Shown here: positions 27,570-45,646 of the stretch, piece by piece
How the letters are laid out: the number at the start of each line of letters is the position of its first letter
How positions within the stretch are numbered: the first letter of the stretch is position 1
NCBI GenBank assembly: GCA_003666485.1
Contig: CP032931.1
Coordinates: 248,001 to 312,000, forward strand
Source of the DNA: Levilactobacillus brevis
GTDB taxonomy: Bacteria; Bacillota; Bacilli; Lactobacillales; Lactobacillaceae
Length of the DNA: 64,000 nucleotides
Direction: 5' to 3'
Translations under genes and position numbers: made by a program
The notes under the pieces: model-generated
Database searches by the model: none
Told to the model about the DNA's origin: nothing
Seen by the model: only the letters and a program-made list of their open reading frames with translations

Positions 27570-27737
27570 AATGCTATGTAACACCTTACAATATACGCTT
27601 TTGCCGGAAGCGTTTTGTTAATAAATGCTGACTCTTTTGTGAACAAACTGTGAACTTTATGAATTCTACTATAATTAGCAGGTTATAAAGTGTAATGTGA
27701 AAAATGGATGGTTTTTTAAGCGGCGGATAACGTTATC

Positions 27738-27750
27738 TAAGAAATTCTTA
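27738..27750. promoter_or_regulatory. shared operator, site 1 (acyltransferase operon)
   Basis: TAAGAAATTCTTA is a 13-bp palindrome about 100 bp before the acyltransferase start. With its flanks it matches the site at 45634-45646 before ssuC over about 30 bases when compared on opposite strands. The remaining 27570-27847 shows no gene. Confidence 0.65.
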
Positions 27751-27847
27751 TTTCTTGTTTAGAAAACCATCAGGACGTCGACGTTAATCACATGATATAA
27801 CTAAAGACGTATTAATTACGGGGCGACCCGTTAGAAGAGGTGAGACC

Positions 27848-29026
27848 GTGGCCGAACGGAAAAAACGGCGGTATTTACATGAAGTTGATCTCATGCGGGT
27901 CATGTTTATCGGTGGGGTGTTGTTAAATCACACCACGACGGCATTTGAGAACCGCTTAGTCGATACCACGAATAGTCAGTTACTGTTGGAAGCCACCCAC
28001 TTGGCCCTGCATTTTACCCGGATGGGCTTTATGTTTATGACCGGGTTAGTGTTGGTCCTGAATTATTATAACCGTGACCATCAGTGGCTACGCTTTTGGA
28101 AGAAGCGTTACATCAGTTCCGGGGTCCCCTACATTGCCTGGAACGCAATCATCATGATCGTGGCGACCCTGATTGCCAGCGGCGGCATTGATTGGCCGAA
28201 GTACTGGGCCCATCTGGGCAACGCGCTGCAGTATGGGAATGAGTATTACATGTATTATATCGTGGTCACTTTCCAGCTGTACCTGTTGTTCCCCGCCATT
28301 GTGTATATGTTTAAGAAACTCCCGACGCACCATCTGGCCATCATCGGCATCAGTGGGGCGGTCCAGCTGTTCCTGATTACGGGAATCAAGTACTGGCTCC
28401 CACACATTGACACCAGCAACTGGCTGTGGTGGTTCCGGGCCTACGGGAACAACGTGTTTGTGTACCAATTCTACTTCGTGGTCGGTGGCTTCGTGGCCAT
28501 TCACTACGACGATGTGGTTGCCTTCATTGAAAAGCACCACAAGTTCATCAACTGGATGGCGGGACTGCTGGCGATTGGCACGGTCTTCTTATTCTTCGGT
28601 GACCGTGACATCTTGCAGCTGAGTCGCAAGGCCGTGTTCTCCGTGCACCAACCGTTCATCTTCATTTACGACTGTTTTATGATTTTATTTGTTCTCTGGT
28701 TCGGCCTGCAGTACGCCAAAGCGCGCCAACACGGCCTGCCGGACTGGTTAGACAACCTGATTCAGGCCTTCTCCAAGGTTTCCTTCGGGATCTACCTCTG
28801 TCAAAGTTTACCGATCTTTGCCTTAAATGCCATCTTGGCACACATGAGTCTTCCCGCCTGGTTGCTGCTGTTGCTGCTGCCAGTGGGTTACCTCTTCGTT
28901 GCCGGGGGCGCCTTACTGATTTCTTGGTTCTGCTTCAAGGTGCCACCATTCGGTATCTTGATTGGCCGGCCCCAATGGCACTTGTTCTCGAAAGGAGCAC
29001 GTTCACATGTCAAAAGTAACGCTTAA
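27848..29026 (+). CDS. membrane acyltransferase, acyltransferase-3 (OafA/WecH) family
   Basis: A 392-residue integral membrane protein with about ten hydrophobic helices. The family marks are a catalytic-type His in helix 1 (GGVLLNHTT) and an Arg plus Gly motif in HFTRMGFMFMTG. The GTG start has AGAGGTGAG just before it. It overlaps the acyl-CoA ligase gene by 20 bp, and the ligase overlaps the SsuA-like gene by 4 bp, so all three are co-translated. Such enzymes move an acyl group onto a sugar, wall or lipid acceptor across the membrane; here the acyl group could come from the co-encoded ligase. The acceptor is unknown. Confidence 0.87.
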   Translation: MAERKKRRYLHEVDLMRVMFIGGVLLNHTTTAFENRLVDTTNSQLLLEATHLALHFTRMGFMFMTGLVLVLNYYNRDHQWLRFWKKRYISSGVPYIAWNAIIMIVATLIASGGIDWPKYWAHLGNALQYGNEYYMYYIVVTFQLYLLFPAIVYMFKKLPTHHLAIIGISGAVQLFLITGIKYWLPHIDTSNWLWWFRAYGNNVFVYQFYFVVGGFVAIHYDDVVAFIEKHHKFINWMAGLLAIGTVFLFFGDRDILQLSRKAVFSVHQPFIFIYDCFMILFVLWFGLQYAKARQHGLPDWLDNLIQAFSKVSFGIYLCQSLPIFALNAILAHMSLPAWLLLLLLPVGYLFVAGGALLISWFCFKVPPFGILIGRPQWHLFSKGARSHVKSNA

Positions 29027-30533
29027 ATTAACCAATCAATTGAAAAAGCACGCTAACGATAAAATTATCAAAGACGAAGCCCGCGACCAATGGTACACCG
29101 GTGCGGAACTGGCAGCCGATGTCGATCAACTCGACGATCAGCTGCGCGGCCTGCACGTGGGTCACGGCGACGTCGTTTACGTTTGCCTGCCCAACTCGGG
29201 GATGTACCCCGTTTTGACGCAAGCCATCTGGGAGATTGGGGCCATCATGAACCCCGTTTCCGCCAACACGCCAGCCGCTGAAATGCTCGCCGACTTGAAG
29301 GAACACGACTACGCGGCCGTTATCGTGGCTGACGACCTGGTCGATGCTGTCTTGGCTGACCGGCAGACACAACGCGCCGATTTGACGCTCAACACGGCCG
29401 ACAACTTGACCGTTATTCGGGATACCAAGGTGGCCGGTCACGTGGCCGCAACGCCGACCGAAGAGGACTTAGCGCTCATCCTGCACACGTCCGGGACCAC
29501 CGGGAAGCCTAAGCGGGTCGGCTTGACCCACGACTTGATTCGCCACGGTGCCCAACACGACATCGACGCGCACCGGTTGACGGCGGCCGACACGACCCTG
29601 ATCACCATGCCGATGTTCCACATCAACGCGCAGGTCGTTTCCGTTCTGTCCACGCGCCTGTCTGACGGCAAAATGGTCATCACGCCGAAGTTTTCCGCGA
29701 GCCGCTTCTGGCCACAAGTACAAAACAACGGCGTGACCTGGGCATCCGTCGTGCCAACCATCATCAACATCTTACTGTTAAACAACAAGGCCAAGGCGGC
29801 CTACAACGACCAGACCCATTTGCGGTTCGTGCGTTGTTCCTCCTTCTCCTTGCCACTAGAAAAACTGACCGACTTCGAAGACACGTACCACACGCGCATC
29901 TTGGAAGGTTACGGTATGACCGAAACTGCCAGCCAATGCACCTTGAACCCATTTGACAAGCCTAAGGTCGGTTCCGTGGGCCTGCCAGTAGGGACCGATA
30001 TGGCAATCTTGGTCGATGGCGAATTTACCACGACCCCTGGCCAATCCGGTGAGATTGCGGTTCGTGGTGATCACGTCATCAAGTCCTACCTGGACCCACA
30101 TCCTGATTCCTTCAAGGATGGCTGGTTCTTGACCGGTGACTTGGGTTACTTCGACGACGATGGGTACCTCTACATCAACGGTCGGAAGAAGGATATCATC
30201 AGTGTTGGTGGCGAAAAGGTCGCCCCAGCACGGGTAGAAAATGTTCTGAGTGAACTGGACTTCATCAAGGAAATCACAGTCATTGGGACCCCCGACGACC
30301 TGTACGGTGAAGCGGTGACCGCCGTTGTCATCAGTCGGCCAAACAGTGGCTCTCAAAAAGACCAAGAACAGGCCATTTTTGATCAAGCTAAGAAGGCCCT
30401 GGCCGGCTACGAACAACCGAAGCACGTGTTATTCGTTCATGATTACCCACGGAACGCCACGGGCAAGGTCGTCCGGCCAAAGCTACGGGACCTGGTCGTT
30501 AACGATCCGGTGAAGTTGGGTGCTAGCGCATGA
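29007..30533 (+). CDS. AMP-forming acyl-CoA ligase
   Basis: A 508-residue ANL-superfamily enzyme with all core motifs: LHTSGTTGKPKRV (phosphate loop, about residue 158), EGYGMTETA, the Asp/Arg hinge YLYINGRKKDIISVGGEK and the C-terminal catalytic Lys in NATGKVVRP. It activates a carboxylic acid to the acyl-AMP and then a thioester. The ATG at 29007 has AAAGGAGC 10 bases before it and lies inside the end of the acyltransferase gene. Lactobacilli seldom have free acyl-CoA ligases of this kind, so its close link with a membrane acyltransferase and an SsuA-like binding protein is informative. The acid may be short-chain or aromatic. Confidence 0.9.
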   Translation: MSKVTLKLTNQLKKHANDKIIKDEARDQWYTGAELAADVDQLDDQLRGLHVGHGDVVYVCLPNSGMYPVLTQAIWEIGAIMNPVSANTPAAEMLADLKEHDYAAVIVADDLVDAVLADRQTQRADLTLNTADNLTVIRDTKVAGHVAATPTEEDLALILHTSGTTGKPKRVGLTHDLIRHGAQHDIDAHRLTAADTTLITMPMFHINAQVVSVLSTRLSDGKMVITPKFSASRFWPQVQNNGVTWASVVPTIINILLLNNKAKAAYNDQTHLRFVRCSSFSLPLEKLTDFEDTYHTRILEGYGMTETASQCTLNPFDKPKVGSVGLPVGTDMAILVDGEFTTTPGQSGEIAVRGDHVIKSYLDPHPDSFKDGWFLTGDLGYFDDDGYLYINGRKKDIISVGGEKVAPARVENVLSELDFIKEITVIGTPDDLYGEAVTAVVISRPNSGSQKDQEQAIFDQAKKALAGYEQPKHVLFVHDYPRNATGKVVRPKLRDLVVNDPVKLGASA

Positions 30534-31516
30534 GTCGGACCAAGCGAACCGTTTTAAAATGGCTAGTTGGCATCGTGTTGGTCTTGTGGGTCGGGGTGGC
30601 CTTTTACGGCTACCAACAAACGGATGGCGCTAAGAGTAGCCATACCAACGGCTTGACCACGGTGACGGTCGGTTATCAAAAGGGGGATCCCTTTGATATC
30701 GCCAAGCAACGCGGCAAGCTGGTCAAGAAGATGAAGGCCAAGGGCTACCGGTTGGTACTCAAGCAGTTCCAAGACGGGAATGCGCTGATGCAGGCGCTGA
30801 AGTCCGGCAGTATCGACTACGCGCGGGCCGGCGATACGCCACCCGTTACGGCGCAGTCAGCGGGAACTGATCTGGCTTACGTCGGCGTGGGCTCCACCAA
30901 GGCCAAGGGTTCCGGTATCCTGGTCAAGAAGAACAGCGGCATCAACTCGCTGAAGGACTTGAAGGGCAAGAAGATTGCTTACACCAAGGGGACCAGTTCC
31001 CAGTACCTGCTCTTGCAGCTGATTGAAAAGGCGGGGCTTGAGGTCAATGACGTCGATTGGGTCAACATGGACCAATCAGCGGCTAGTGTGGCCTTTGCCA
31101 AGGGCAAGATCGATGCGTGGGTCACCTGGGATCCGTACACGGCCCAAGCAGAGTTGACGCAAAATGCCAAGGCCCTGAGCAATGGGGTCGGCATGAGCAA
31201 CAACCGGGACTACATTTTGTCAATGCAGACCTATGCTAAGTCGCACAAGACGGTATCAAAATACCTAGTGGACTATCTGGAAGATGATATGCACTGGGCC
31301 GATACCCACCACAAGCAGTTGACGACCATGCTCAGCAAGTCGCTGAAGCTGAAGAAGTCAGTGGTCAAGAAAATGGTTGACCGCCGGCGTTACAGCATTC
31401 GCGGCATGTACGCCAGCGTTGTCAAGGAACAACAGGAAATGGCCGATAACTTCTACAAGAACGGCATTACCACCAAGAAAATTAACGTTAAGAGCGCTGT
31501 GACTTATCTGAAATAG
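30530..31516 (+). CDS. SsuA/TauA-like ABC transporter substrate-binding protein
   Basis: A 328-residue extracellular binding protein with an uncleaved or Sec N-terminal helix (residues about 8-28) and no lipobox Cys, so it is probably membrane-anchored. VTVGYQKGDPFDIAKQRG, SGSIDYARAGDTPPV and GKIDAWVTWDPY are diagnostic of the aliphatic sulfonate/taurine/nitrate group. The ATG overlaps the ligase stop as ATGA. No permease or ATPase follows; a terminator comes 10 bp later. The likely partners SsuC and SsuB are encoded at 43956-45505 on the other strand and share an upstream palindrome with this operon. Confidence 0.9.
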   Translation: MSRTKRTVLKWLVGIVLVLWVGVAFYGYQQTDGAKSSHTNGLTTVTVGYQKGDPFDIAKQRGKLVKKMKAKGYRLVLKQFQDGNALMQALKSGSIDYARAGDTPPVTAQSAGTDLAYVGVGSTKAKGSGILVKKNSGINSLKDLKGKKIAYTKGTSSQYLLLQLIEKAGLEVNDVDWVNMDQSAASVAFAKGKIDAWVTWDPYTAQAELTQNAKALSNGVGMSNNRDYILSMQTYAKSHKTVSKYLVDYLEDDMHWADTHHKQLTTMLSKSLKLKKSVVKKMVDRRRYSIRGMYASVVKEQQEMADNFYKNGITTKKINVKSAVTYLK

Positions 31517-31525
31517 GTCACGTGC

Positions 31526-31769: not shown

Positions 31770-32849
31770 CTACGAATTGGCAGTGGCTACTGGCTTTGAA
31801 TTATCCTGATAAAGCTGCTTTTTGAAATAGAGATACCCCAAATAGAGTTCAAATAATTCAACAGTTTTATGTGGGTCTAGATTGAAACTTTGCTTAATAC
31901 GTTCTAGACGGTAACTGAGTGTGTTTCGGTGTATATGTAAAGCCGCTGCAGTATGAACCATACTACCATTATTGTGAATAAATGCGCTTAAAGTTTCAAT
32001 AAGTTCATTTCCTGACTCAGACTTATGCTCTTTCTCAAAGAGTCTTTCAAGATTTGTAAATGATAGTTCGCTATTAAGAAGTCTATCAACAAAGGCAACT
32101 TGCTGATAGTAAATCAAGTCTGATCGGTTAAAAATAGTACTGATTTGAAGAGCCTGAGTAGCCTGTTGAATAGACTTTCCGATGTTGCGTGTCGCTAAAC
32201 CGATACCAAGACGAATTCTTTTTGCACGACAATACTTGATTAGACGATCAATAGTGGCATTCAAACGAGTTAAAATAATTGTTGTTTTAGTATCAAGAAT
32301 AATTTTATAGTCTGTGCCATCCATGATACCAATGGGAAGATTTTGTCTTTCAATGGCAATTGCGGTGCGCGGCTTTAATATATCGATTTTTAACTGACTA
32401 GCTTCTAAGAGCAGTTCCGTTTTAGATTCAATATCGCTAGTAACCTGTGACCACTGATAAAGAAAGCGATTGAGTGTATTTTCTCTCTTCTTTTCTTTCA
32501 AGTTACTTTCATTTTGACTCAATAATAGTTCTGTTGCAATTCTTAATAGAGAAGCTAAGGGGGTGACTTTGTCGGGATCACCAGTTATTCCGATGACACC
32601 GACAATTTCATTGTCAAAAAAGATGGGCATATTTATTCCTGGCTGTCCATGTTGTCCAAATGAGCGTGCCATTGGCAATGTCTTTTTTTGCTCAATTGCA
32701 TCAAGCGCGCCGACATGCAATGTATTAATTCGAGAACTATCACCACTGGCGATAACGTAGCCGTTTTGGTCCATAAGATTAACGTTATAAGGAATCTGTG
32801 CCATCATTTTATTCACAATTGATTGTGCAAGTACTGGGTCGATTTTCAT
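31770..32849 (-). CDS. CdaR-type sugar-diacid regulator
   Basis: A 359-residue regulator. The N-terminal domain IDPVLAQSIVNKM ... NLMDQNGYVIASGD is the sugar-diacid-recognition module. The C-terminal helix-turn-helix of the PucR/CdaR type includes HNNGSMVHTAAALHIHRNTLSYRLERI. The ATG at 32849 has AAGGCGGG upstream. In E. coli CdaR activates glucarate/galactarate genes; here it is divergent from a glucarate catabolic cluster, so the same role fits. TTGTGCAATTG sequences lie between the divergent genes. Codon use is AT-rich like the island it heads. Confidence 0.9.
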   Translation of the reverse strand: MKIDPVLAQSIVNKMMAQIPYNVNLMDQNGYVIASGDSSRINTLHVGALDAIEQKKTLPMARSFGQHGQPGINMPIFFDNEIVGVIGITGDPDKVTPLASLLRIATELLLSQNESNLKEKKRENTLNRFLYQWSQVTSDIESKTELLLEASQLKIDILKPRTAIAIERQNLPIGIMDGTDYKIILDTKTTIILTRLNATIDRLIKYCRAKRIRLGIGLATRNIGKSIQQATQALQISTIFNRSDLIYYQQVAFVDRLLNSELSFTNLERLFEKEHKSESGNELIETLSAFIHNNGSMVHTAAALHIHRNTLSYRLERIKQSFNLDPHKTVELFELYLGYLYFKKQLYQDNSKPVATANS

Positions 32850-32935
32850 AGTATGTCCCGCCTTCAATTTATTACAGAGCGTCATTGGATGAAGTGTAAT
32901 TATTTAGTTAATAGACTAGTTTCAATCAATAAATT

Positions 32936-32950
32936 TGTGCAATTGACAGA
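32936..32950. promoter_or_regulatory. candidate CdaR operator, site 1
   Basis: TTGTGCAATTGACAG, 87 bp before cdaR, shares its first 11 bases with the site at 33249 and with the near-perfect palindrome at 36420. Confidence 0.5.
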
Positions 32951-33248
32951 TAAGCAGTTAAGTTTCGTAAGTAACTATAAATGTTGGCGTAATTTTAATC
33001 AGAAAAATGAAAGCGCCTCCACATTATTTAAACGCAGAAATTCAACTTTTTCAAGTACAAGTGGTAATCGCAATTTTAGAGCTGGTGGGAGCCTTAACTT
33101 TGGATTGATGGGTTTTTATACCAAAAATTGCTAAACTGAGGCGGCTACTACAAGCCTGTTAATTACTCAGAGCAATGTATGGCAACATATCCTTGGGGGT
33201 AGTCATGGTCCTGCCTTGAGTGTTTAACCAAAGTTAGTTGTTTAAAGT

Positions 33249-33262
33249 TTGTGCAATTGCAT
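33249..33262. promoter_or_regulatory. candidate CdaR operator, site 2
   Basis: TTGTGCAATTGCAT, 152 bp before the first 2-hydroxyacid dehydrogenase gene, matches 13 bases of the palindrome TTGTGCAATTGCACAA. Just after it, about 33257-33302 resembles 41101-41147 before the second dehydrogenase gene. The rest of the 564-bp gap 32850-33413 shows no gene. Confidence 0.55.
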
Positions 33263-33413
33263 ACATGATTAGGCTTTGTTATGTAATAAACTAAGACTTG
33301 TAAAAACGAAGTAACAATTTTTTTGATAGATGTGTTCACAATTTCACTTTTGTTGAAGGGGTTATGGGCCCACGCTCCTTCTAAATTTTGAAGGGAAAGA
33401 AGTGCGGTACGAT

Positions 33414-34364
33414 ATGGCAAAAATTGTATATATTCCAGAAGATATTGCTAACGTTGGCAAGAAATTTTTAAAGGATAAAGGTTATGATGTGATCCTTGGA
33501 ACCGGGACTGATGCACAGACAATCTTACGGGAAGGTAAGGATGCAGAAGGAATCATCTTACGGACTTCACAATTTGGAAAAGACATCATTGACGGTTTAC
33601 CAAACGTTCAGATTATTGCACGACACGGTGTTGGTTTTGATAATGTTGATGTAGATGCTGCAACGGCGGCTGGGAAATGGGTAACAAATACACCTTTAGC
33701 TAATGCAAGTTCAGTTGCGGAGACAGCAACGAGTTTATTATTAGCAATGGCAAAGAATCTGAAAAATGATATTACACATATGGCTGATGATGACTTTTTC
33801 TATAAGAATTCGCATAAAGGAATGGATTTAGAAGGAAAGACATTAGGCATCGTAGGCTATGGCAAAATTGGAAAAATGTTTGCAAAAAAGGTTCAGGGAT
33901 TAGATATGAATATCTTGATTTATGATCCTTTTATTTCGGAAGTAGAGACAGGCAAATTGGTCTCACGTAAAGAATTGTTAGAGTCATCCGATTTTGTGTC
34001 GCTACATTTGCCAGCTAATGCTCAAACGAAGGAATCTTTTGGAGAAGAAGAATTCAAGCTGATGAAAAAGACAGCATATTTGATTAATTTATCACGAGGT
34101 AGTGTTGTAAATGAAAGCGCTTTAATAAATGCGCTTGAATCTAAAACAATTGCTGGGGCAGCGCTAGATGTTTATTCACAGGAACCTCTACCAATGAATA
34201 GTCCATTATTTTCTTTGGAAAACGTAACTTTAACGCCGCATATTGCATCAAACACAGGAGAAACGATGGACAGAATGGCATTACATGCCGCTATGGAAGT
34301 TGATCGAGTTTTATCCGGTAATGAGCCTAAATGGGCAGTTAATCAGGTACTAGCTAAAAATTAA
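33414..34364 (+). CDS. D-2-hydroxyacid dehydrogenase (PGDH-like), copy 1
   Basis: A 316-residue D-isomer-specific 2-hydroxyacid dehydrogenase. The NAD loop is LGIVGYGKIGKMF near residue 144; the catalytic Arg is in NLSRGS, the Glu in VYSQEPLP and the His in LTPHIASN. It closely resembles the product at 41239. The ATG at 33414 is preferred since it aligns with the paralogue's start; a GTG at 33402 with better ribosome-site spacing is the alternative, but the paralogue has GCG there. It begins the unit dehydrogenase-YhcH-DASS transporter. A substrate such as a sugar-acid-derived hydroxy or keto acid is likely. Confidence 0.9.
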   Translation: MAKIVYIPEDIANVGKKFLKDKGYDVILGTGTDAQTILREGKDAEGIILRTSQFGKDIIDGLPNVQIIARHGVGFDNVDVDAATAAGKWVTNTPLANASSVAETATSLLLAMAKNLKNDITHMADDDFFYKNSHKGMDLEGKTLGIVGYGKIGKMFAKKVQGLDMNILIYDPFISEVETGKLVSRKELLESSDFVSLHLPANAQTKESFGEEEFKLMKKTAYLINLSRGSVVNESALINALESKTIAGAALDVYSQEPLPMNSPLFSLENVTLTPHIASNTGETMDRMALHAAMEVDRVLSGNEPKWAVNQVLAKN

Positions 34365-34381
34365 TATACGGAGATGAAATT

Positions 34382-34834
34382 ATGATTTACGATACGATTA
34401 AAGGTTTTGAAGAAAATAATTTATATGACGCGAAGACAAAGTTAGTTTTGGATTATGTGAAAAATAATGATATTTCAACATTGGAAGTAGGGAGCCATAA
34501 AATTGATGGTGATAATTTCTATGTAAACGTTTTAAGTTACGATACTGAAAGTGAGACAAATCGTTCATGGGAGAGCCATGATAAGTATATTGATGTTCAT
34601 GTGTTAGCTTCTGGTACCGAGGGCTTAGCTTTAAATGATACTGCTAATATGAAGCGAGAAGAATACAATATCAAGAAGGATAAGGCAACTTTAACGGGAG
34701 ATAAAAATGTTTCTTTGACGCTGAGACCAGGTCAAATTTTAATCTGCTATCCGGAAGACGGCCATAAAACGGGAATTCAGGTTACGGAACAACCTAGTCA
34801 TTTAAAAAAATGTGTTTTCAAAGTTAAGCTTTAG
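34382..34834 (+). CDS. YhcH/YjgK/YiaL-family protein
   Basis: A 150-residue beta-sandwich (cupin-like) protein. The family pattern is seen in WESHDKYIDVHVLASGTEGL (metal-type His and the conserved DVH) and LICYPEDGHKTG near the end. Members occur in sialic acid, gulonate and other sugar-acid operons and are suspected anomerases or isomerases. It starts 17 bp after the dehydrogenase gene with a moderate CGGAGA ribosome binding site, and is followed by the anion transporter, so it probably handles the same imported acid sugar. Confidence 0.85.
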   Translation: MIYDTIKGFEENNLYDAKTKLVLDYVKNNDISTLEVGSHKIDGDNFYVNVLSYDTESETNRSWESHDKYIDVHVLASGTEGLALNDTANMKREEYNIKKDKATLTGDKNVSLTLRPGQILICYPEDGHKTGIQVTEQPSHLKKCVFKVKL

Positions 34835-34888
34835 TCAGTTGGGTAATCAGAAATTAAGATCGACTAATATGAAATGAGGTTCTCAACT

Positions 34889-36322
34889 TTGGAAGATGCT
34901 CAGAAGAAAAAATCATTTAACAAAAAGCGTTGGGTTTCGATGCTAATTAGCATTATCTTAGGAATTATCATCTGGTTTATTCCAGTTCCAGGTAATTTCT
35001 CGGTCAGTGCATGGCATTTGTTTGCAATCTTTGTTGCCACAGCTTTTGGGTTCATGCTACGGCCATTCCCATCAGGGGTAGTTACGCTGATTGCGTTGAC
35101 GATGACTATGGTAACAGGAATTTTACAGGTTCCTGAAGCATTTGAAGGTTTTAGTTCAGATACGATTTGGTTAATTGTTTCCGCCTTCCTCTTCTCGAGA
35201 GGTTTGATTAAAACGGGACTGGGACGGAGAATTGCTTATTTTTTGATGGCTCGCTTTGGCTCAAGTTCGTTGAAGTTAAGTTATTCACTTTCGCTAGGTG
35301 ACTTGATTATTAGCGCCTTTGTTCCTTCGAATACGGCTCGATCGGGTGGGATTATGTACCCAATTGTTCGTAGTATTGCAGGTGTTGCTGGCTCAGAACC
35401 GGATAAGGAACCACGCAAGATAGGTGCATATCTTATTATGTCCTTGGTACATAACGATAATATTGCCAGTGGATTAACTATGACAGCGTGTGCAGGTAAC
35501 TTGTTAGTTGTAACTTTTGCTGCCAAAATTGCAAATATACATCTATCTTGGTTCTCTTGGTTTTTGATGGCATCAGTTCCTGCGTTAGTTGCATTCATTG
35601 CGACGCCATGGATCCTTTATAAAATTTTCCCACCAACCATGAAAAAGACGCCTGAAGCTCGTATAGCAGCACAACAGGCGTTGAGTGAAATGGGGAAAAT
35701 GAGCTCTGAAGAAAAGTTATTATCCCTGATTTTTGCTATTACGATTATTGGATGGGCGACTACTGGGATTACAGGCTTAAGTTCGACGGTAGTTGCTTTA
35801 GTGGGACTGTCACTGATGACTTTGACCGGAATTCTGAAATGGCAAGATATTACTACTGAAAAAGGTGCCTGGGACGTAATGTTCTGGATGGGTGGTATGT
35901 ATAGTCTGGCTGATAATCTTTCAAAGATGAACTTTTTCAAAATATTTGCACAGTATGTTGCACGGGACTTGCATGGTATCAGTTGGCCTCTAGGGTTAGC
36001 TATTCTGATTTTCATTTTTATTGCAACAACATATGGATTTGCAAGTGGTATTTCTCACTTACTAGCTATGTATCCAGTGTTCTTGACTGTAGCTATTGGA
36101 ATTGGTGTTCCACCATTTCTAGCAGTTATGTCACTAGGAATTTGCACGGTCCTCTATCAAACGTTAACGCATTATGCTTCCGGACCAGCGGCAGTTTATT
36201 TTGGCGGTGGTTATGTCGAACAAGGTACTTGGTGGCGTTTAGGGATTGAAATGTTACTCATGAACTTCGTTATCTGGGGATTTGTTGGATTTACTTGGTG
36301 GAAGATTCTGGGACTCTGGTAG
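34889..36322 (+). CDS. DASS/SLC13-family anion symporter (di-acid transporter)
   Basis: A 477-residue membrane protein with about 12 helices. The family marks include SAFVPSNTARSGGIMYPI (the Ser-Asn-Thr carboxylate motif) and a related repeat in the second half (AIGIGVPPFLAVMSLGI, TLTHYASGPA). I prefer the TTG at 34889, 9 bases after GAGG; the ATG at 34874 overlaps that ribosome binding site. It would bring in a dicarboxylate, most plausibly glucarate or galactarate given the linked CdaR and GudD. It lacks a GudP-type MFS relative nearby, so this may be the diacid importer of the locus. Confidence 0.88.
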   Translation: MEDAQKKKSFNKKRWVSMLISIILGIIIWFIPVPGNFSVSAWHLFAIFVATAFGFMLRPFPSGVVTLIALTMTMVTGILQVPEAFEGFSSDTIWLIVSAFLFSRGLIKTGLGRRIAYFLMARFGSSSLKLSYSLSLGDLIISAFVPSNTARSGGIMYPIVRSIAGVAGSEPDKEPRKIGAYLIMSLVHNDNIASGLTMTACAGNLLVVTFAAKIANIHLSWFSWFLMASVPALVAFIATPWILYKIFPPTMKKTPEARIAAQQALSEMGKMSSEEKLLSLIFAITIIGWATTGITGLSSTVVALVGLSLMTLTGILKWQDITTEKGAWDVMFWMGGMYSLADNLSKMNFFKIFAQYVARDLHGISWPLGLAILIFIFIATTYGFASGISHLLAMYPVFLTVAIGIGVPPFLAVMSLGICTVLYQTLTHYASGPAAVYFGGGYVEQGTWWRLGIEMLLMNFVIWGFVGFTWWKILGLW

Positions 36323-36328
36323 CACTAA

Positions 36329-36376
36329 ATTGGTTCATCCGACAGGCGACTGTATGGATGAGCCAATTTGTGTTTT
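36329..36376 (+). terminator. Rho-independent terminator
   Basis: ATTGGTTCATCC and GGATGAGCCAAT form a 12-bp stem, followed by a T-rich TTGTGTTTT. It ends the dehydrogenase-YhcH-transporter unit. Confidence 0.8.
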
Positions 36377-36419
36377 GACTGATAAATAATAGTAATTTAA
36401 AGAAGAAAGCGGTAACAAA

Positions 36420-36435
36420 TTGTGTAATTGCACAA
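36420..36435. promoter_or_regulatory. candidate CdaR operator, site 3 (best palindrome)
   Basis: TTGTGTAATTGCACAA differs by one symmetric base pair from a perfect 16-bp palindrome. It lies 111 bp before garR and about 55 bp before a TATACT -10-like box (36490-36495). Related half-matched sites lie at 32936 and 33249. Confidence 0.62.
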
Positions 36436-36530
36436 ATAAATACAAGTAAGTTAGATGCTTTGGGTAATATATTTGTGTGAAATTTATCTTATACTCGTAA
36501 GTGTAGAAAAGTTGAAAGGGGTTTTATATT

Positions 36531-37412
36531 ATGAAACTTGGATTTGTTGGATTAGGTATTATGGGCAAGCCAATGGCAAAGAACTTAGTAAAAGCGGGGC
36601 ATGATCTAACTGTATTTGATTTTAAAGATGAAGCAGTTAATGAACTAGTTGAATTAGGGGCGACGGCAGCCACAGATGGAAAATCAGTTGCAGAAAACTC
36701 TGATGTTATTTTCACGATGGTGCCTAACTCACCTAACGTTGAAGCGGCTTTATTCAACGATGGCGGTATTGTTGAAGGCTTGAGTGCTGGTAAGACGGTT
36801 ATTGATATGAGTTCAATCAACCCACTGGCTAGCCAAGACTTTGCTAAGCGTTTGGCTAAGTTAAATGTTGGTTTCTTGGATGCCCCTGTTTCGGGTGGGG
36901 AACCCAAGGCTATTGATGGCTCAATTGCCTTCATGGTTGGTGGTGACAAGGATCTCTTTGATAAGAACAAAGAATTATTAGATGTTATGGGTGGCTCTGT
37001 AACCTACGTTGGGGCTGTTGGCGCTGGTAACACGACGAAGTTAGCCAACCAAGTTATTGTTGCTTTGAACATTGCCGCCGTTAGTGAAGGGTTTGCTTTG
37101 GCTAAGAAGGCCGGCTTAGATCCGAAGATGGTTTTTGATGCCATTCATACTGGTCTAGCTGGTAGTACTGTTATGGACGCTAAGGTACCAATGATGATTG
37201 CTCGGAACTTCGAACCTGGATTCCGTGTAGACTTGCACATCAAAGACTTACAAAACGCCTTGGATACTTCCCATTCACTACATGTTGGTCTTCCACTGAC
37301 TGCTGAGGTTATGGAAATTCTCCAATCAGTTAAGAATGATGGTAATGGTAGTGATGATCATTCTGCTATTGCTAAGTTCTATGAGAAGATGAATGATTTG
37401 ACGATTGAATAG
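36531..37412 (+). CDS. garR: tartronate semialdehyde reductase (2-hydroxy-3-oxopropionate reductase)
   Basis: A 293-residue beta-hydroxyacid dehydrogenase of the normal GarR length. The cofactor loop is GFVGLGIMGKPMAKNL at the start. DAPVSGGEPKA marks the substrate region and GAGNTTKLANQ contains the catalytic Lys. It reduces tartronate semialdehyde to glycerate. The ATG has AAAGGGG. It opens the second unit of the island, garR-gudD-lyase-glycerate kinase, which forms a near complete glucarate route. Codon use here is closer to highly expressed genes than in the first unit. Confidence 0.93.
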   Translation: MKLGFVGLGIMGKPMAKNLVKAGHDLTVFDFKDEAVNELVELGATAATDGKSVAENSDVIFTMVPNSPNVEAALFNDGGIVEGLSAGKTVIDMSSINPLASQDFAKRLAKLNVGFLDAPVSGGEPKAIDGSIAFMVGGDKDLFDKNKELLDVMGGSVTYVGAVGAGNTTKLANQVIVALNIAAVSEGFALAKKAGLDPKMVFDAIHTGLAGSTVMDAKVPMMIARNFEPGFRVDLHIKDLQNALDTSHSLHVGLPLTAEVMEILQSVKNDGNGSDDHSAIAKFYEKMNDLTIE

Positions 37413-37499
37413 TCAGAAAAGCTAATCTGGCAAGTAAAGGAAATGGGATTTAAAACCGTCCTTTTTTCTTTTTCGCCAAAAAGTGAAAGGATAGGTAAT

Positions 37500-38828
37500 A
37501 TGTCAGTTCCTAAGATTGTTAAAATGGACGTTTATCCAGTCGCTGGATATGATAGTATGCTACTAAATTTGAGCGGTGCGCATGGACCATACTTTACTAG
37601 AAATATCGTTATCTTAACGACAGACACGGACGAAGTTGGGGTTGGGGAAATCCCAGGTGGGGAGAAGATAACCAATACGTTGAACGATGCTAGGCCTTTA
37701 GTTTTAGGCAAGACATTGGGAGAGTACAAAGAGGTTTTGCAAACAATTCGAACTAAATTTTCGGATCGAGATTCAGGTGGTCGGGGATTACAAACCTTTG
37801 ATTTACGAACGACAATTCATGTTGTGACTGCTATTGAAGCTGCGTTCTTAGATCTATTGGGGAAATATTTACATGTTCCAGCAGCAGCATTGCTTGGAGA
37901 TGGGCAACAACGCGAAAAGGTCGACGTTCTAGGCTATCTTTTCTATATTGGAGATAAGTCAAAGACAGATTTGAATTATATTAGCCATGATGATGATTCG
38001 GATGCTTGGGGACGAATTCGTCGAGAACCTGCACTCACACCAGCAGCTATCGTTAAAGAAGCACAAGCTGCGTACGATCGTTACGGTTTCAAGACCTTTA
38101 AGCTTAAGGGCGGTGTCTTCGACGGTGAACAAGAAGTTGCAGCCATCAAGGCCTTGCACAAGGCTTTCCCAGATGCCAAGCTTGATCTTGACCCGAATGG
38201 TGCTTGGTCATTAAAAGATGCCATCCACTATGCATCAGAGCTCAAGGGTATCTTGACTTATGCTGAAGATCCTTGTGGTGCTGAAGAAGGCTTCTCTGGT
38301 CGGGAAATCTTATCCGAATTCCGGAAAGCAACCTTCTTACCAACCGCTACGAACATGGTTGACACTGACTGGCGGCAAATGTCTCATGCCATTGCCTTAG
38401 ATAGTGTCTCTGTACCATTGGCTGACCCTCACTTCTGGACTATGGAAGGTTCTGTCCGAGTTGCTCAACTTTGCCATGAATTTGGGTTAAACTGGGGAAT
38501 TCATTCCAACAACCACTTTGATATTTCCTTGGCGATGGTTGCCAATACTGCTGCAGCGGCTCCTGGTGACATTTATGCGGTTGATACGCATTGGATTTGG
38601 CAAGATGGTCAGAATCTGACTAAGAACCCATATCAAATTAAGGACGGGCAATTATCAGTGCCTGCAACCAATGAGGGATTAGGCGTTGAAATTGATTTGG
38701 ATGCTATCAAGGAAGCTAATAAGGTATACATTGAAAACAACTTGGGTGCGCGGGATGATGCCAAGACCATGCAATACTTGGTTCCTAACTGGAAATTCGA
38801 TCCTAAGAAGCCTGCATTAGTTCGTTAA
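37500..38828 (+). CDS. gudD: glucarate dehydratase
   Basis: A 442-residue enolase-superfamily enzyme closely resembling E. coli GudD over its whole length (for example [39 protein letters not shown]). The acid/base Lys motif FKLKGG is near residue 203, metal ligands lie in LDPNGAW and [15 protein letters not shown], and the catalytic His is in [11 protein letters not shown]. It dehydrates D-glucarate to 5-keto-4-deoxyglucarate. The ATG has AAAGGATAGG. The first 550 bases are noticeably AT-richer than the rest, as if the gene were a mosaic. Confidence 0.96.
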
Positions 38829-38846
38829 TAGAAAGGATAGATAGTC

Positions 38847-39752
38847 GTGGATATTAGTCGGATCAAAGGTATTATTGTCCCATTGTTAATCCCAGTTAAT
38901 GATGACGAGAGTGTCAATGAACCTAAATTACGCGAAGTTATTGATCATGTGATTGATGGCGGTGTACAAGGTATCTTGGCATTTGGTAGTAATTCAGAAT
39001 TCTACATGTTTACTGATGAAGAAATGACTGAAATCTTTAAGATCATTGTTGACGAGACAAATGGCAGAGTTCCTGTCTTCTTCGGAATGGGGCCAATTCG
39101 GACCAGTCATGGGGTTAAGCTGGCTAAGTTGGCTGAAAAGCTGGGTGCCGACGGAATCTCAGTCTTACAGCCAATGTTCCTCAAGCCAACGGATGAAGAA
39201 TTGTATGGTCACTTTAAGGCGATTGCGAATGCTGTGCCTAACTTGCCAATGCTGTTGTACAATAATCCACGAGTGGGTTACCGTTTGAATGCTTCTCTGG
39301 TTAGTGACTTGGCCCACAATGTTGAAAATATTATTGGGGTTAAGGATTCAAGTGGTGATATGACTTACTTCAGCGAAGTCGTTCGGTTAACGCAGGATAT
39401 TGAGTTCCGTGCATTCACTGGTAAAGATACATTGATTTACTTAGGATTATGCGCAGGTTCATGGGGCAGTGTCTGCTCGACAGCTAATGGCTTGGTAAAA
39501 GAAGTTGTCGATATTTACGACAAATTCGAAGCCGGCGATTACAAAGGTTCTCGTGAAGCGCAATACAAGTTTAATCCAGCACGATTGGTTCAAAATAAGG
39601 CTAGCTTCCCAGTAGCTACAAAGGATATGGCTAATTTGCTTGGCATGAATGTTGGCAAGCCAATCCTCCCAAGTCTACCTTCTGATGGTGCAGTCCTTGA
39701 CGGCATGAAGACGGAGATTGATAAACTGGTGGGGACTAAGACCACGAATTGA
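38847..39752 (+). CDS. DapA-family lyase, probable 5-keto-4-deoxyglucarate aldolase or dehydratase
   Basis: A 301-residue class I (Schiff-base) lyase of the dihydrodipicolinate synthase superfamily. The Schiff-base Lys is in GVKDSSGDM and the catalytic Tyr in LLYNNPRVGY; GSNSEFYM replaces the usual GTTGE. The GTG start has AAAGGATAG. By position it should act on the GudD product. DapA-family KdgD enzymes make 2-oxoglutarate semialdehyde from it, but the genes on both sides (garR, glycerate kinase) need tartronate semialdehyde. So it probably works as an aldolase giving pyruvate and tartronate semialdehyde, standing in for the unrelated GarL, which is absent here. Confidence 0.85.
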   Translation: MDISRIKGIIVPLLIPVNDDESVNEPKLREVIDHVIDGGVQGILAFGSNSEFYMFTDEEMTEIFKIIVDETNGRVPVFFGMGPIRTSHGVKLAKLAEKLGADGISVLQPMFLKPTDEELYGHFKAIANAVPNLPMLLYNNPRVGYRLNASLVSDLAHNVENIIGVKDSSGDMTYFSEVVRLTQDIEFRAFTGKDTLIYLGLCAGSWGSVCSTANGLVKEVVDIYDKFEAGDYKGSREAQYKFNPARLVQNKASFPVATKDMANLLGMNVGKPILPSLPSDGAVLDGMKTEIDKLVGTKTTN

Positions 39753-39762
39753 GGTTTTTCTT

Positions 39763-40905
39763 ATGACAAGGGTACTAATTGCATCGGATTCGTTTAAAGG
39801 AAGTGCAACGTCAAACGAGGTAGCCGATTATATCGCAACGGGGGCGCATCAAGCTGACCCGACAATTCAGGTCACAACCATTCCGATTGCGGATGGTGGC
39901 GAAGGGACAGTTAGTAGTGTCTTAACCGCTGTTGGCGGTCAAACCTACACAGCTTCGGTCGTTGGTCCGTTGGGGCAGACGGTTGATGCTCATTGGGGGA
40001 TGATTGATCAGAAGACTGCGATTGTTGAGGTTGCTGAAGCGGCTGGATTAAATCTAGCCAAGAGTGATCTTGATCCCATGTTGACGACAACATATGGTGT
40101 TGGTCAAATGATTCAGGCTGCTTTGGATCGTGGTGCTTCTAAAATCTATATTGGTCTTGGTGGCAGTGCCACTAATGACGGCGGCATTGGGATGGCTCAG
40201 GCACTCGGTGGACACTTCTATGATAGCGCCAATCATGAGTTAGCTTATGGTGGCAACGGACTGTTGCAGTTAGACCATGTCGATTTGTCAAAAATGGATT
40301 CACGGCTAGCTGGCGCAACCATTATTGGTCTAACAGATGTTGCCAATCCATTAACCGGGCCTCAAGGGGCATCAGCAATTTTTGGTCCCCAAAAAGGTGC
40401 AGACCAGAACAAGATTCAACAGCTGGACAAGGGGCTAGCGCTTCTGAACCAGATTTTGAAAACACAGTTGGATATTAACTGTGGTGATGTTCCTGGGGCT
40501 GGCGCTGCTGGTGGGACTGGATTTGGGATTCTCAGTTTCCTTGGTGGCCGGTTGAAACCGGGAATAGAAGAAATTATGCGCTTGACCAAGTTGGAAGAAC
40601 GGGTTGCCGAAGCAGATTTGGTTATCACTGGCGAAGGTCAGATTGATGGGCAATCTCTGATGGGCAAGGCGCCAATTGGAATAGCACAACTTGCTAAATC
40701 ACATGAACTACCAGTGGTGTTAATTGCTGGCAGCATCGGTGATAATATTCAGGCAGTCTATGCTGCCGGCGTGGACCTGGTTCTCTCGTCTACAGTATCG
40801 CCGATGAGTGTAGAGCAAGCAATCGCCAACGTTCGTCCGCTTCTAACGCAAGCGGGTTACACTGCAATGCGTGCGTTTAACCTTAATCAGGTTTTGACGC
40901 ACTAA
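39763..40905 (+). CDS. glxK: glycerate kinase
   Basis: A 380-residue type-1 (GarK/GlxK) glycerate kinase. It starts VLIASDSFKGSATSNEVA, and has GGSATNDGGIGMAQALGG near residue 130 and VITGEGQIDGQSLMGKAP near 290. It phosphorylates glycerate, normally to 2-phosphoglycerate in this family, delivering the last product of the glucarate route to glycolysis. The ATG at 39763 is placed 8 bases after GAGG, which overlaps the stop of the lyase gene. It closes the unit, with two terminators behind it. Confidence 0.93.
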   Translation: MTRVLIASDSFKGSATSNEVADYIATGAHQADPTIQVTTIPIADGGEGTVSSVLTAVGGQTYTASVVGPLGQTVDAHWGMIDQKTAIVEVAEAAGLNLAKSDLDPMLTTTYGVGQMIQAALDRGASKIYIGLGGSATNDGGIGMAQALGGHFYDSANHELAYGGNGLLQLDHVDLSKMDSRLAGATIIGLTDVANPLTGPQGASAIFGPQKGADQNKIQQLDKGLALLNQILKTQLDINCGDVPGAGAAGGTGFGILSFLGGRLKPGIEEIMRLTKLEERVAEADLVITGEGQIDGQSLMGKAPIGIAQLAKSHELPVVLIAGSIGDNIQAVYAAGVDLVLSSTVSPMSVEQAIANVRPLLTQAGYTAMRAFNLNQVLTH

Positions 40906-40945
40906 GCAATAATGAAACACTCCTTCAGATTATAAAAACAAATGG

Positions 40946-40978: not shown

Positions 40979-40981
40979 AAT

Positions 40982-42177: not shown

Positions 42178-42256
42178 TAATTTCAACTTAATTGGAGAAA
42201 ATCCTTGCTCATCACGTCGCGTCGCCCGCTATAACTAGAGTCAGGAGGTGAGATTC

Positions 42257-42988
42257 ATGTCAACTTACACGACGGGCGAACTTGCGAAAAGCGCCGGTGT
42301 CTCTGTGCGAACGCTTCAGTACTATGATCAAAAAGATGTATTGAAGCCAACGGCTACGACTGATGGTGGCCGGCGCATTTACACCGAGACGGATGCTGAA
42401 ACACTCAAGCTGATTTTGCTGCTGAAAAGCATGGGCTTGAAGCTGGCGGCAATTCGCAAAATTCTAGCCAGCGATAACGCGCAACCAATTCTAGAGCTCC
42501 TGCTGGCAGAACAGGCCAAACGGTTGACCCATGACCGGGACCAAGCGACGGCACAATTGCGGACGGTAACGGCTGTTCAGAAGAGCTTAACCGGTGCGGC
42601 AGGAGTGGCCCTCAAATCCATTAAAGACATGGATCGACTGATGAATAATCGACAAGCGTTGAAACGGGTACATGGGCAACTGATCATTGGTGGTTTACTG
42701 ATGGACGTTTTAGAAGTCGCGGGGTTGGTCTATGCTTGGGTTACCGGCAACTGGTGGGTCTTCGCCGGTGTGATGGCCATCGCCATTGTGGTCGCTGCTG
42801 GCCTGAGCCACCACTATTTCCAACGGGTGGCCTACACCTGCCCGCACTGCCACACGACCTTTAAACCACGCTTCTGGCAGGAGTTTTGGGCCGGTCACAG
42901 TCCCCGTACGCGCAGACTGACTTGTCCGCACTGTGGGCAAACGGATTACTGCATCGAAGTGTTTGCTGAATCAAGTGAATTGTCCTAA
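42257..42988 (+). CDS. MerR-type regulator with membrane helices and zinc-ribbon-like end
   Basis: A 243-residue protein with an unusual build. The N-terminus is a classical MerR helix-turn-helix (YTTGELAKSAGVSVRTLQYY) followed by a coiled dimerisation helix to about residue 130. Then come two hydrophobic helices (about 147-190; LLMDVLEVAGLVYAWV and WWVFAGVMAIAIVVAAGL). The C-terminus has two CPHC pairs (YTCPHCHTTFK, LTCPHCGQTDYC), as in a zinc ribbon. The ATG has AGGAGGTGA. It is 41 bp upstream of the arginase-fold gene, so they may be co-transcribed. The signal sensed is unknown. Confidence 0.8.
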   Translation: MSTYTTGELAKSAGVSVRTLQYYDQKDVLKPTATTDGGRRIYTETDAETLKLILLLKSMGLKLAAIRKILASDNAQPILELLLAEQAKRLTHDRDQATAQLRTVTAVQKSLTGAAGVALKSIKDMDRLMNNRQALKRVHGQLIIGGLLMDVLEVAGLVYAWVTGNWWVFAGVMAIAIVVAAGLSHHYFQRVAYTCPHCHTTFKPRFWQEFWAGHSPRTRRLTCPHCGQTDYCIEVFAESSELS

Positions 42989-43029
42989 ACTGGGACTAGT
43001 TAAGTCGTTCACAGAAAGGTGGAATTTTG

Positions 43030-43899: not shown

Positions 43900-43905
43900 C
43901 CAGAA

Positions 43906-43949
43906 AAAATCCCAGCCACTGGCAACCATGCCAATGTGACTGGGATTTT
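43906..43949. terminator. bidirectional terminator
   Basis: AAAATCCCAG and CTGGGATTTT form the outer stem, with an inner TGGCA/TGCCA pairing. It separates the + strand arginase-fold gene from convergent ssuB. Confidence 0.88.
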
Positions 43950-43955
43950 CGCAAC

Positions 43956-44684
43956 TTATGATTCTACTTTGTCGTGTAAAATAGCTTCCAACACGTCTTC
44001 GGCGACCAGGCCGACTTGGCCGGCGTCGTGGCGGTCGGTGGGACCGTTGAACTCGGCGTAGTTGGTCTCGTGTTTCATGACCACGATGCGGTCCGCCATG
44101 CGGGCAGCTTCGTTGACGTCGTGGGTAACCAGAACTGTCGTGAGCTGTTGCTGCTCACAGATGCGCAGAATCAGGTCCTGCATTTTCCGGCGGGTCAAGG
44201 CGTCTAGGGCACCCAATGGTTCATCGAGCAATAAGACTTGCGGATGTGACATCAAGGCGCGGGCCAAGGCGACCCGTTGCTTTTGCCCACCAGACAATTG
44301 GTTCGGGAATTGTTGGGCGAAGTCGTCCAAGTCGACCAGGTGCAAGAGCTTCTTAGCCTCGGCCTGTTGTGTCGCGTCGTGACTCTTGAATGACAGGTTG
44401 TCGAGCACCGTCATCCACGGCAATAATCGGTCTTCTTGGAACATCACGCGGATCACGACCGCGGAATCTTCGCGGGATTCGTGGTTGAACAGCACGTGGC
44501 CACGCGTTGGGGCTTCCAATCCAGCAATCATCCGCAGCAGCGTACTTTTCCCGCCACCACTCATCCCGACTAGCGCGAGGAATTCGCCGGGTTCGATATT
44601 AAAGTTCACGTCGCCCAGGGCAGTGATTTGGCCGTAGTCTTTGCCGATGTGGTCGATGGTGATTTCTGGTTTTGTGGTTGTCAT
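43956..44684 (-). CDS. ssuB: SsuB-like ABC transporter ATPase
   Basis: A 242-residue ATPase of the nitrate/sulfonate/taurine importer group. Walker A is GMSGGGKST, the Q-loop MFQEDRLLPW is typical of SsuB/TauB, the signature is LSGGQKQR, and Walker B is VLLLDEPLGALD with the switch His in LVTHDVNEAA. Its ATG shares one base with the stop of the permease gene (TAATG). With SsuC it makes the engine of a sulfonate-type importer; no binding protein is encoded here, and the best candidate is the SsuA-like protein at 30530. Confidence 0.92.
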   Translation of the reverse strand: MTTTKPEITIDHIGKDYGQITALGDVNFNIEPGEFLALVGMSGGGKSTLLRMIAGLEAPTRGHVLFNHESREDSAVVIRVMFQEDRLLPWMTVLDNLSFKSHDATQQAEAKKLLHLVDLDDFAQQFPNQLSGGQKQRVALARALMSHPQVLLLDEPLGALDALTRRKMQDLILRICEQQQLTTVLVTHDVNEAARMADRIVVMKHETNYAEFNGPTDRHDAGQVGLVAEDVLEAILHDKVES

Positions 44685-45505
44685 TATTTACTGCTCCTTC
44701 CCAGCGTTTGCCAGTCGAGGAAGAGCGTTTCAAAACTCTTGGCGACCAGGTCAGAGATCTTCCCGAGAATGGCGTAGATCACGATACACAAGATGACCGT
44801 TTCCATGTCCACGAAGTCCTCGGCGTTGGTTGACATGTAGCCGATTCCCGAGTTGGCAGAAATGGTTTCGGCCACGATCAAGGTGGTCCACATCACCCCT
44901 AAGGCGTAACGCACGCCGACCAACACTTGGGGCAGCGCTGCGGGGAAGATGATCTTTTGAAAAAGTTGGCGTTTCGATAAATTGTAGGACTGGCCCATCT
45001 CAATCAGGTCGGGGTCGACGTTGCGAATCCCGTTGAATGTGTTGATGTAGACCGGGAACATCGTCCCGATGGCCACCAGGGAGATCTTGGCGGATTCATT
45101 GATGCCCAGCCAGATGATGATCAGCGGAATCAACGCCAGATGGGGCACGTTCCGGACCATTTGGATGGATGAGTCAAACAGCAAGCGGGCGGTGTTGGAC
45201 ATCCCGTTGACAAAGCCCAAGATGAACCCCAGGCCACCACCGATGACCAGACCCAGTGTGGCCCGGTACAGGCTGATACTCATGTTCTTTGGCAGTTCGC
45301 CGCTTTGCGTCAGCTTGACACCATCCTGTAAGACGGCCCACGGTGAGGGCAAAATATTGGTCGACAGCCAGCCCAGACTACTGCTGAGCTGCCAGACAAC
45401 GACGACGAGTACGGGAATTAGAAATGGCAAGAACCCTTTAAACGAGAAGGACCGCGTCTTCGGTTTCGGCGGAAGCGCGGGGGATAGGGCAACAGTTTTT
45501 TGCAT
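44684..45505 (-). CDS. ssuC: SsuC-like ABC transporter permease
   Basis: A 273-residue permease with about six helices. The coupling-helix (EAA) region is MGQSYNLSKRQLFQKIIFPAALPQ, with the sequence GVRYALGVMWTTLIVAETI after it, as in SsuC/TauC/NrtB. The ATG has AGGAGG 10 bases before it. It is the first gene of ssuC-ssuB. About 130 bp upstream lies TAAGAATTTCTTA, which matches the palindrome before the acyltransferase/ligase/SsuA-like operon on the opposite strand. Confidence 0.92.
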   Translation of the reverse strand: MQKTVALSPALPPKPKTRSFSFKGFLPFLIPVLVVVVWQLSSSLGWLSTNILPSPWAVLQDGVKLTQSGELPKNMSISLYRATLGLVIGGGLGFILGFVNGMSNTARLLFDSSIQMVRNVPHLALIPLIIIWLGINESAKISLVAIGTMFPVYINTFNGIRNVDPDLIEMGQSYNLSKRQLFQKIIFPAALPQVLVGVRYALGVMWTTLIVAETISANSGIGYMSTNAEDFVDMETVILCIVIYAILGKISDLVAKSFETLFLDWQTLGRSSK

Positions 45506-45633
45506 TGAAAAGAGCCTCCTAGGCAGGAATAATCAAAATTAAATGTTGTGGCGGTGCTGAAGATTACCGCCATGCTACCCGTAGTTTACAAGTAATTTCG
45601 GGCCACAACTATTGTCGTTTTCTAAGTGTTAAA

Positions 45634-45646
45634 TAAGAATTTCTTA
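45634..45646. promoter_or_regulatory. shared operator, site 2 (ssuCB operon)
   Basis: TAAGAATTTCTTA, a 13-bp palindrome. The longer context TTTTCTAA-(7 nt)-AAATAAGAATTTCTTAGA is repeated, reverse-complemented, at 27735-27768. Confidence 0.65.

Follow-up and report, generated by a model that had tools for sequence, protein, structure and literature searches.

Does an ABC (ATP-binding cassette) importer whose genes are divided between two separate operons still constitute one system, and if so, what would coordinate the two halves? The question is raised by a window of 64,000 nucleotides from Levilactobacillus (L.) brevis (contig CP032931.1, positions 248,001 to 312,000; G000:C1:248001-312000 of the 3.1-Mb genome), in which a gene for an SsuA-like substrate-binding protein is found without a neighbouring permease or ATPase and genes for an SsuC-like permease and an SsuB-like ATPase are found without a neighbouring binding protein. 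The original prediction, made from the letters of the window, had described these two orphan sets, and the gene calls bear it out on both. The following genes are considered:

27848..29026, + strand: membrane acyltransferase (domain match, Pfam Acyl_transf_3), first gene of operon 1
28962..30533, + strand: acyl-coenzyme A (CoA) ligase forming adenosine monophosphate (AMP), AMP-binding (domain match; relatives of solved structure)
30530..31516, + strand: SsuA-like substrate-binding protein (TIGR01728), operon 1
43956..44684, − strand: SsuB-like ABC ATPase (profile and domain matches), operon 2
44684..45505, − strand: SsuC-like permease (profile and domain matches), first gene of operon 2

The SsuA-like protein scores above the curated cut-off of TIGR01728 (203.6 and 163.5 bits, respectively) and an N-terminal membrane anchor was seen by eye. 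The permease and the ATPase fall below the equivalog cut-offs of their best models, i.e., PRK11365 (322.4 bits, cut-off 347) and SsuB (227.7 bits, cut-off 395), respectively. The true start of the ligase gene is probably located a little 3′ of 28962. From the data outlined below, and with a probability of about 0.83, the two operons would encode one sulfonate-type importer together with the ligase and the acyltransferase, and both would be switched on by a single response regulator acting through a shared DNA box.

The same 13-bp palindrome had been proposed to precede both operons, and it is found exactly as claimed, i.e., TAAGAAATTCTTA at 27738-27750 and TAAGAATTTCTTA at 45634-45646. Shuffled sequences predict 0.10 matches of this 13-mer in the window even if one mismatch is allowed; two exact copies are observed. 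The wider similarity on opposite strands is also real and the aligned upstream regions read CTAAGAAATTCTTATTT-N4/5-TTAGAAAAC. The elements of the two promoters are:

27738..27750, + strand: 13-bp element TAAGAAATTCTTA, box of the acyltransferase-ligase-ssuA operon (exact match; alignment of relatives)
27759..27761, + strand: second conserved element TTA (of TTAGAAA), 8 bp past the 13-mer
27796..27801, + strand: −10 hexamer TATAAC, 45 bp past the 13-mer
45634..45646, − strand: 13-bp element, box of the ssuC-ssuB operon (TAAGAAATTCTTA read on the − strand; exact match)
45623..45625, − strand: second conserved element TTA (of TTAGAAA), 8 bp past the 13-mer
45583..45588, − strand: −10 hexamer TAAACT, 45 bp past the 13-mer

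Alignment of both promoters across relatives showed that the palindrome, while present at both operons, is only part of a longer site and that its right half is the least conserved part. This longer box is CTAAGAAWTTCTTA-N8-TTA, and a −10 hexamer follows at a distance of 45 bp. The consensus derived from 87 distinct sites is CTAAGAAaTTCttA-N5-aacCTTAa; TAAGAA-TTC, the closing A and the second TTA hardly vary in it, in contrast to the TT of the right half, and the CTTA elements are spaced by 11 bp. Among 106 distinct sites, which were picked regardless of spacing from promoter and regulator loci and include reverse readings, a −10 hexamer matching in at least five of six positions is located at 45 bp in 65, at 44 bp in five and at other spacings (34-57 bp) in two; the remaining sites, including the ssuC promoters (4/6), have no −10 of this quality. 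Boxes of PhoB/OmpR-type activators are composed of tandem elements at 11 bp and are found upstream of promoters with a weak −35. The box described here shares both features and differs in that the distance from the 13-mer to the −10 is nearly fixed at 45 bp.

The palindrome might have occurred at many unrelated promoters of the genome, but a genome-wide search returned five promoters only. Exact copies of the 13-mer number three, of which the third (genome 1096296) is located between two convergent genes, by eye those of a TetR-type regulator and a hydrolase. This copy was rejected as a member of the regulon, as it has neither the TTA nor a −10, and because of this and of its position between convergent genes it is probably a chance occurrence. 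The sequence TAAGAAATTC occurs 15 times; exactly five of these copies are followed by TTA 8 bp on and by a −10 at 45 bp (44 bp in one case), and the other ten are without both. Sites deviating from this 10-mer could escape the count, as the search at two mismatches was read only for sites that hold it. Two of the five promoters belong to the window operons and three to small genes, of which two lie beside a two-component system: a short gene 3′ of the histidine kinase, and a gene for a secreted-looking protein of 102 amino acids, divergent from the response regulator. The third, found elsewhere, encodes a protein of 100 amino acids related to the latter, so that beyond the window two promoters are found at the two-component locus and the remaining one ahead of a relative of a gene there. 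The regulon that had been postulated thus stands in that the same box and geometry are found at both halves and in two genera; it does not stand as a private ssu operator, because the regulon comprises five promoters. Most likely, this small regulon belongs to a two-component system.

The two related proteins of about 100 amino acids, one of them divergent from the response regulator, have a signal-like start and are encoded behind a box at L206 8427-8735 and L217 1108-1410; the first of these returned no NCBIfam match. They are possible feedback partners of the kinase. The short gene 3′ of the kinase, at L206 5231-5479 on the reverse strand (MLIDDNPKIK...), is conserved behind a box and is found at the same place in L207, L208 and L210.

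In relatives, a stretch was counted as a box if its composite score was at least 17 of 21. Such a box is found ahead of the acyltransferase operon in all 26 loci (Levilactobacillus 9/9, Companilactobacillus-type 16/16, Agrilactobacillus 1/1) and ahead of the ssuC operon in all 20 (7/7 and 13/13 for the first two groups, respectively). In 17 Companilactobacillus-type loci 38 matches were obtained, where 29 are operon promoters, six are reverse readings of the same palindromes and three, all with a score of 17, are found elsewhere. In 24 other lactic and bacillar loci (434,587 bases) there are two matches, one of which is ahead of an acyltransferase gene (L102), and 14 more distant loci (13 from Enterobacterales and one from Paenibacillus; 291,883 bases) yielded none. 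The predicted gene start is located 5′ of the box in L095 and L101, where the starts are most likely mis-called. The distance from the box to the gene is unusual in L089 (333 bp) and in L. fujinensis (G016, about 670 bp); in the latter, the box and −10 are separated from the acyltransferase gene by about 550 bp of additional sequence that holds no long gene (L084 6633-7307).

Three genomes of the genus (G001, G007 and G010; L055 1501-1735, L059 and L065) retain an ssuC-type box and −10, and SsuA and SsuC of this type were not found in them. A strong hairpin is located about 110 nucleotides past the −10 in L055 (fold z-score −4.46 for the L055 stretch) and also some way downstream in L059 and L065; the hairpin stretch has no match in Rfam. 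The retained promoter is either a promoter fossil facing the terminator of the MerR gene or the promoter of a small-RNA gene.

The candidate for the protein that binds the box is a response regulator of the OmpR/PhoB type encoded at genome position 477565-478257 on the reverse strand, outside the window, with a histidine kinase gene downstream. These tandem genes encode a PhoB/YycF-like regulator and a PhoR/WalK-like kinase, both scoring below the equivalog cut-offs, and the regulator is probably, as far as sequence can tell, the activator of the box. It is found at 85% identity or more in 33 of 35 genomes of the genus, and its locus was obtained for 30 of these. In all 30 the 13-mer, at no more than two mismatches, is found 5′ of the response-regulator gene, and in 27 the full composite is present and faces the divergent small gene. 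Of the other three, L203 has the 13-mer without the rest, and L190 and L196 have it on or past the edge of the 420-bp stretch examined. Many of these loci have a second site past the kinase gene. In 11 of the 13 Companilactobacillus-type loci with ssuC, a kinase gene precedes ligase-ssuC-ssuB in the same orientation, in some cases separated from them by a small open reading frame, and in nine loci a regulator gene lies beside that kinase. A tree of 24 regulators unites those of Levilactobacillus, Companilactobacillus and Agrilactobacillus in a single clade (support 100/98), which excludes the paralogues of the same genome and regulators from genera that lack the box.

Two other assignments of the box were weighed against this regulator. 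Recognition sites of LysR-type regulators have the form T-N11-A and are usually positioned near −64. The 13-mer has this form and this position, the genome holds 14 LysR-type genes and a LysR-looking gene is found near the site in L057, all of which would suit control by a LysR-type protein. Such control is nevertheless improbable, as conservation of the site extends to the second CTTA and is poor in the right half of the palindrome, and as the two-component locus carries the 13-mer in 30/30 loci; the assignment was demoted once this locus proved to carry the site. A rough screen, in which several open reading frames, e.g., that of an aldo-keto reductase, were wrongly picked, showed no clear ssu-linked LysR gene in the split lineages and carries little weight. 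A second possibility is that another OmpR-type protein, one of two paralogues of about 60% identity present in the same genome, or a global regulator uses the box and that the two-component system is itself merely a target. This we regard as unlikely, because the clade of the candidate regulator matches the lineages that bear the box and because the two Levilactobacillus genomes that have SsuA and no SsuC (G016 and G005) are those in which the regulator was not found at 85% identity. The joint absence of SsuC and regulator is, however, represented by G016 only, because G005 is only 72% complete. The MerR-family regulator encoded between the two halves is not considered a candidate for the control of the box.

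With the OmpR/PhoB-type protein as activator, the phosphorylated regulator would bind CTAAGAAWTTCTTA-N5-AACCTTAA, in which CTTA recurs after 11 bp, between about −70 and −43, and would bring polymerase to promoters whose −10 is good and whose −35 is poor, such that the two operons are predicted to be co-expressed. Several observations weigh against this model. The ssuC −10 (TAAACT) matches in only four of six positions, and the box at the regulator locus faces the divergent small gene, not clearly the regulator gene itself. The promoters that carry the box are homologous and are therefore not independent events. The regulator is far more widespread than the transporter, as it is present in all 26 of the 35 genomes of the genus that lack this SsuA; ssu would therefore be an accessory target of a regulator with a wider role. 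L. fujinensis (G016) keeps the acyltransferase operon without ssuBC and without the regulator, and L087 and L089 have no such kinase gene adjoining ssuC. The Companilactobacillus kinase is 38-40% identical to the L. brevis kinase, hardly closer than the L. brevis paralogues (33-37%), and the signal may therefore differ. Finally, genera with a contiguous operon do not have the box of the split lineages, and part of them have another direct repeat.

The claim that the two halves form one transporter is supported by the distribution of the genes. A single SsuA of this kind (next match with an E value of 1.2e-4) and a single close SsuC (next matches at 26% and 30% identity) are encoded in the L. 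brevis genome, where no other SsuA/SsuBC partner set of this kind was found. Within the genus, SsuA of this type (at least 61% identity) is found in nine and SsuC (at least 75%) in seven of the 35 genomes, where all seven with SsuC also hold SsuA. In a further genome, G004, SsuC, SsuA and SsuB of another, only distantly related set (27-36% identity) are encoded together, in this order. A scan of named genomes with the SsuA alignment gave at least 67 loci, of which 49 (48 Lactobacillaceae records and one Bacillus, L124) were analysed for operons; 18 (14 Enterobacterales and four Bacillales) stood outside that analysis. Among the matches listed, the nearest named SsuA records are from L. angrenensis, L. 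suantsaiihabitans and L. cerevisiae. In 16 of the 49 loci the acyltransferase, the AMP-forming ligase, SsuA, SsuB and SsuC are encoded in one operon, in the order SSUC-SSUB-acyltransferase-ligase-SSUA in Loigolactobacillus, Lacticaseibacillus, Schleiferilactobacillus and Pediococcus and in another order in Weissella, Liquorilactobacillus (L. mali of this genus being counted twice among the contiguous loci) and Ligilactobacillus. Because these five genes form one operon in other genera of the Lactobacillaceae, the halves in L. brevis most likely belong to one system. The alternative, i.e., that the halves share the box and not a function, SsuA and SsuBC each working with other partners, could draw on the two distant permeases in the genome (26-30% identity) and on G016, which retains SsuA without SsuBC. 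Considering the contiguous operon in seven other genera and that the genome has no other SsuA of this kind, it is very improbable.

At distances of up to 300 bp from the start, genera with a contiguous operon show composite scores no better than those of shuffled sequences in 19/19 cases (at least 17% of the shuffles reach them). A different repeat is found there, which resembles the site published for CiaR of streptococci, TTTAAG-N5-TTTAAG (PMC3091779). Of 20 upstream stretches scanned as contiguous, ten contain this repeat with at most one mismatch, 5′ of the first gene of the ssu operon (L102, L103, L105, L108, L111, L113, L114, L119, L122 and L123); the other ten have two to four mismatches. 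At this tolerance it is found in none of the 43 stretches scanned as not contiguous; the motif at CiaRH target promoters is NTTAAG-N5-WTTAAG. In Loigolactobacillus bifermentans an exact copy is located just 5′ of the gene for a related regulator, and at the other best regulator loci of these genera no such repeat was seen. This pattern is a lead: the contiguous operon may be under the control of related regulators that use another box. The system shares with CiaRH an OmpR-type regulator and a direct-repeat site with an 11-bp period. In S. mutans the cia operon includes an extra small component gene, ciaX (PMC8317062), to which the small genes that are targets at the regulator locus may be likened. 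The box of the split lineages differs from the CiaR site in that it has another sequence, is located upstream of the −35 position and includes an extra inverted TAAGAA element.

It had further been suggested that an ancestral locus was interrupted by a glucarate island, which lies between the halves together with the MerR gene:

31770..40905, no strand assigned: glucarate-type island between the halves (gene calls; absent from the compact locus of G014)
42248..42988, + strand: MerR-family regulator, found between the halves here and in the compact locus of G014

The island encodes a CdaR-like regulator on the − strand and, on the + strand, a DASS transporter, a tartronate semialdehyde reductase, a glucarate dehydratase-like protein, an aldolase-like protein and a glycerate kinase. 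The transporter, the reductase and the kinase score above their cut-offs and the glucarate dehydratase-like protein below (746.6 and 828.7 bits, respectively). Two convergent operons are found in the window, in G014, G019 and G030, and in 13 Companilactobacillus-type loci (12 so named and L087, a record from an uncultured Lactobacillus); in Companilactobacillus the first gene of the ssuC operon encodes a second ligase (about 40-48% identical). An insertion of the island as the cause of the split would agree with the gene order in the window, G030 and G019, in all of which it lies between the halves. Gene order in relatives lacking the island makes this explanation extremely improbable. In G014 acyltransferase-ligase-SsuA is followed by MerR and then by reversed SsuB-SsuC; the genes on either side are those of the window, and the interval is free of glucarate genes. 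In all 13 Companilactobacillus-type loci the gap between ssuA and ssuB spans 403-5,500 bp and holds no open reading frame that matches an island protein at an E value of 1e-3. Because the halves are close together without the island in these loci and in G014, the convergent split appears to be older than the island. What remains of the suggestion is that the halves are close to each other where the island is absent; the island appears not to have divided them and to have only widened the gap. If the fused arrangement is the older one, the genes would have come into two convergent operons with one copy of the box each, and the island would later have widened the gap in some Levilactobacillus. 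In G016 the island is kept beside SsuA, and neither SsuBC nor the MerR gene is found in the stretch read. In G019 (L. cerevisiae) a galactarate dehydratase-like gene (L069 4208-5719; 688.5 bits, cut-off 730.85) adjoins ssuA.

Given one importer, SsuA, SsuB and SsuC would assemble into a sulfonate-type ABC transporter that functions alongside a cytoplasmic AMP-forming ligase and a membrane acyltransferase. SsuA was aligned to 3e4r, the chain numbering of which was taken as that of X. citri SsuA. In X. citri, the sulfonate is coordinated by Gln36, Gly68, Gly86 and Ser141, with Trp185 in the pocket (PMC3839906); the equivalents of these residues, Q50, G83, G101, S156 and W200, are conserved in the window SsuA. 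All of these except S156 are invariant in the nine Levilactobacillus SsuA proteins. A desulfonation enzyme of the SsuD type (alkanesulfonate monooxygenase) is not detected, as the L. brevis genome has no match to TIGR03565; a control search with this model gave matches in 8 of 14 genomes, including those of E. coli and B. subtilis. In view of the SsuA score, the retained residues and the absence of an SsuD match, a sulfonate or a similar acid is likely to be taken up, and SsuD-dependent use of it as a source of sulfur is unlikely. The system therefore resembles the SsuABC aliphatic sulfonate importers of E. coli, X. citri and B. subtilis in an SsuA above the family cut-off that keeps the coordinating residues. 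It differs in the lack of an SsuD-type match, in an SsuA that looks membrane-anchored, in the ligase and membrane acyltransferase of operon 1 and in its probable two-component control.

The ligase is nearest, among solved structures, to oxalyl-CoA synthetases, and no solved relative of the acyltransferase was found by sequence. A conjecture, doubtful though not far-fetched, is that the five genes constitute an envelope-modification pathway rather than one for sulfur scavenging, induced by an envelope-sensing two-component system. The importer would take in a small organosulfonate or a similar acid bearing an oxyanion, the ligase would make its CoA thioester and the membrane acyltransferase would move the acid onto an extracytoplasmic polymer. 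The small secreted proteins of the two-component system would feed back on the kinase, and in some species the promoter would outlive the loss of the operon, possibly as that of a small-RNA gene.

A literature search for the 13-mer returned one unrelated plant paper. In the titles and abstract openings of the one library searched, no description of this system was found under lactobacilli and sulfonates or under a two-component regulon with acyltransferase and sulfonate. Elsewhere in the window, a Guanidine-I riboswitch is located at 12646-12739 on the − strand (84 bits, gathering score 63).

The regulatory unit is real and well conserved; it is new in detail and composed of parts of known kinds. 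A binding protein and a permease/ATPase pair, each an orphan by itself, are linked into one probable system, for which the likely regulator can be named and an exact, testable DNA box is provided. Two genera retain the same rigid promoter architecture for a split gene set, and the association of a sulfonate-type importer, without a detectable SsuD, with a ligase and a membrane acyltransferase suggests that sulfonates or related acids are used for something other than the supply of sulfur.

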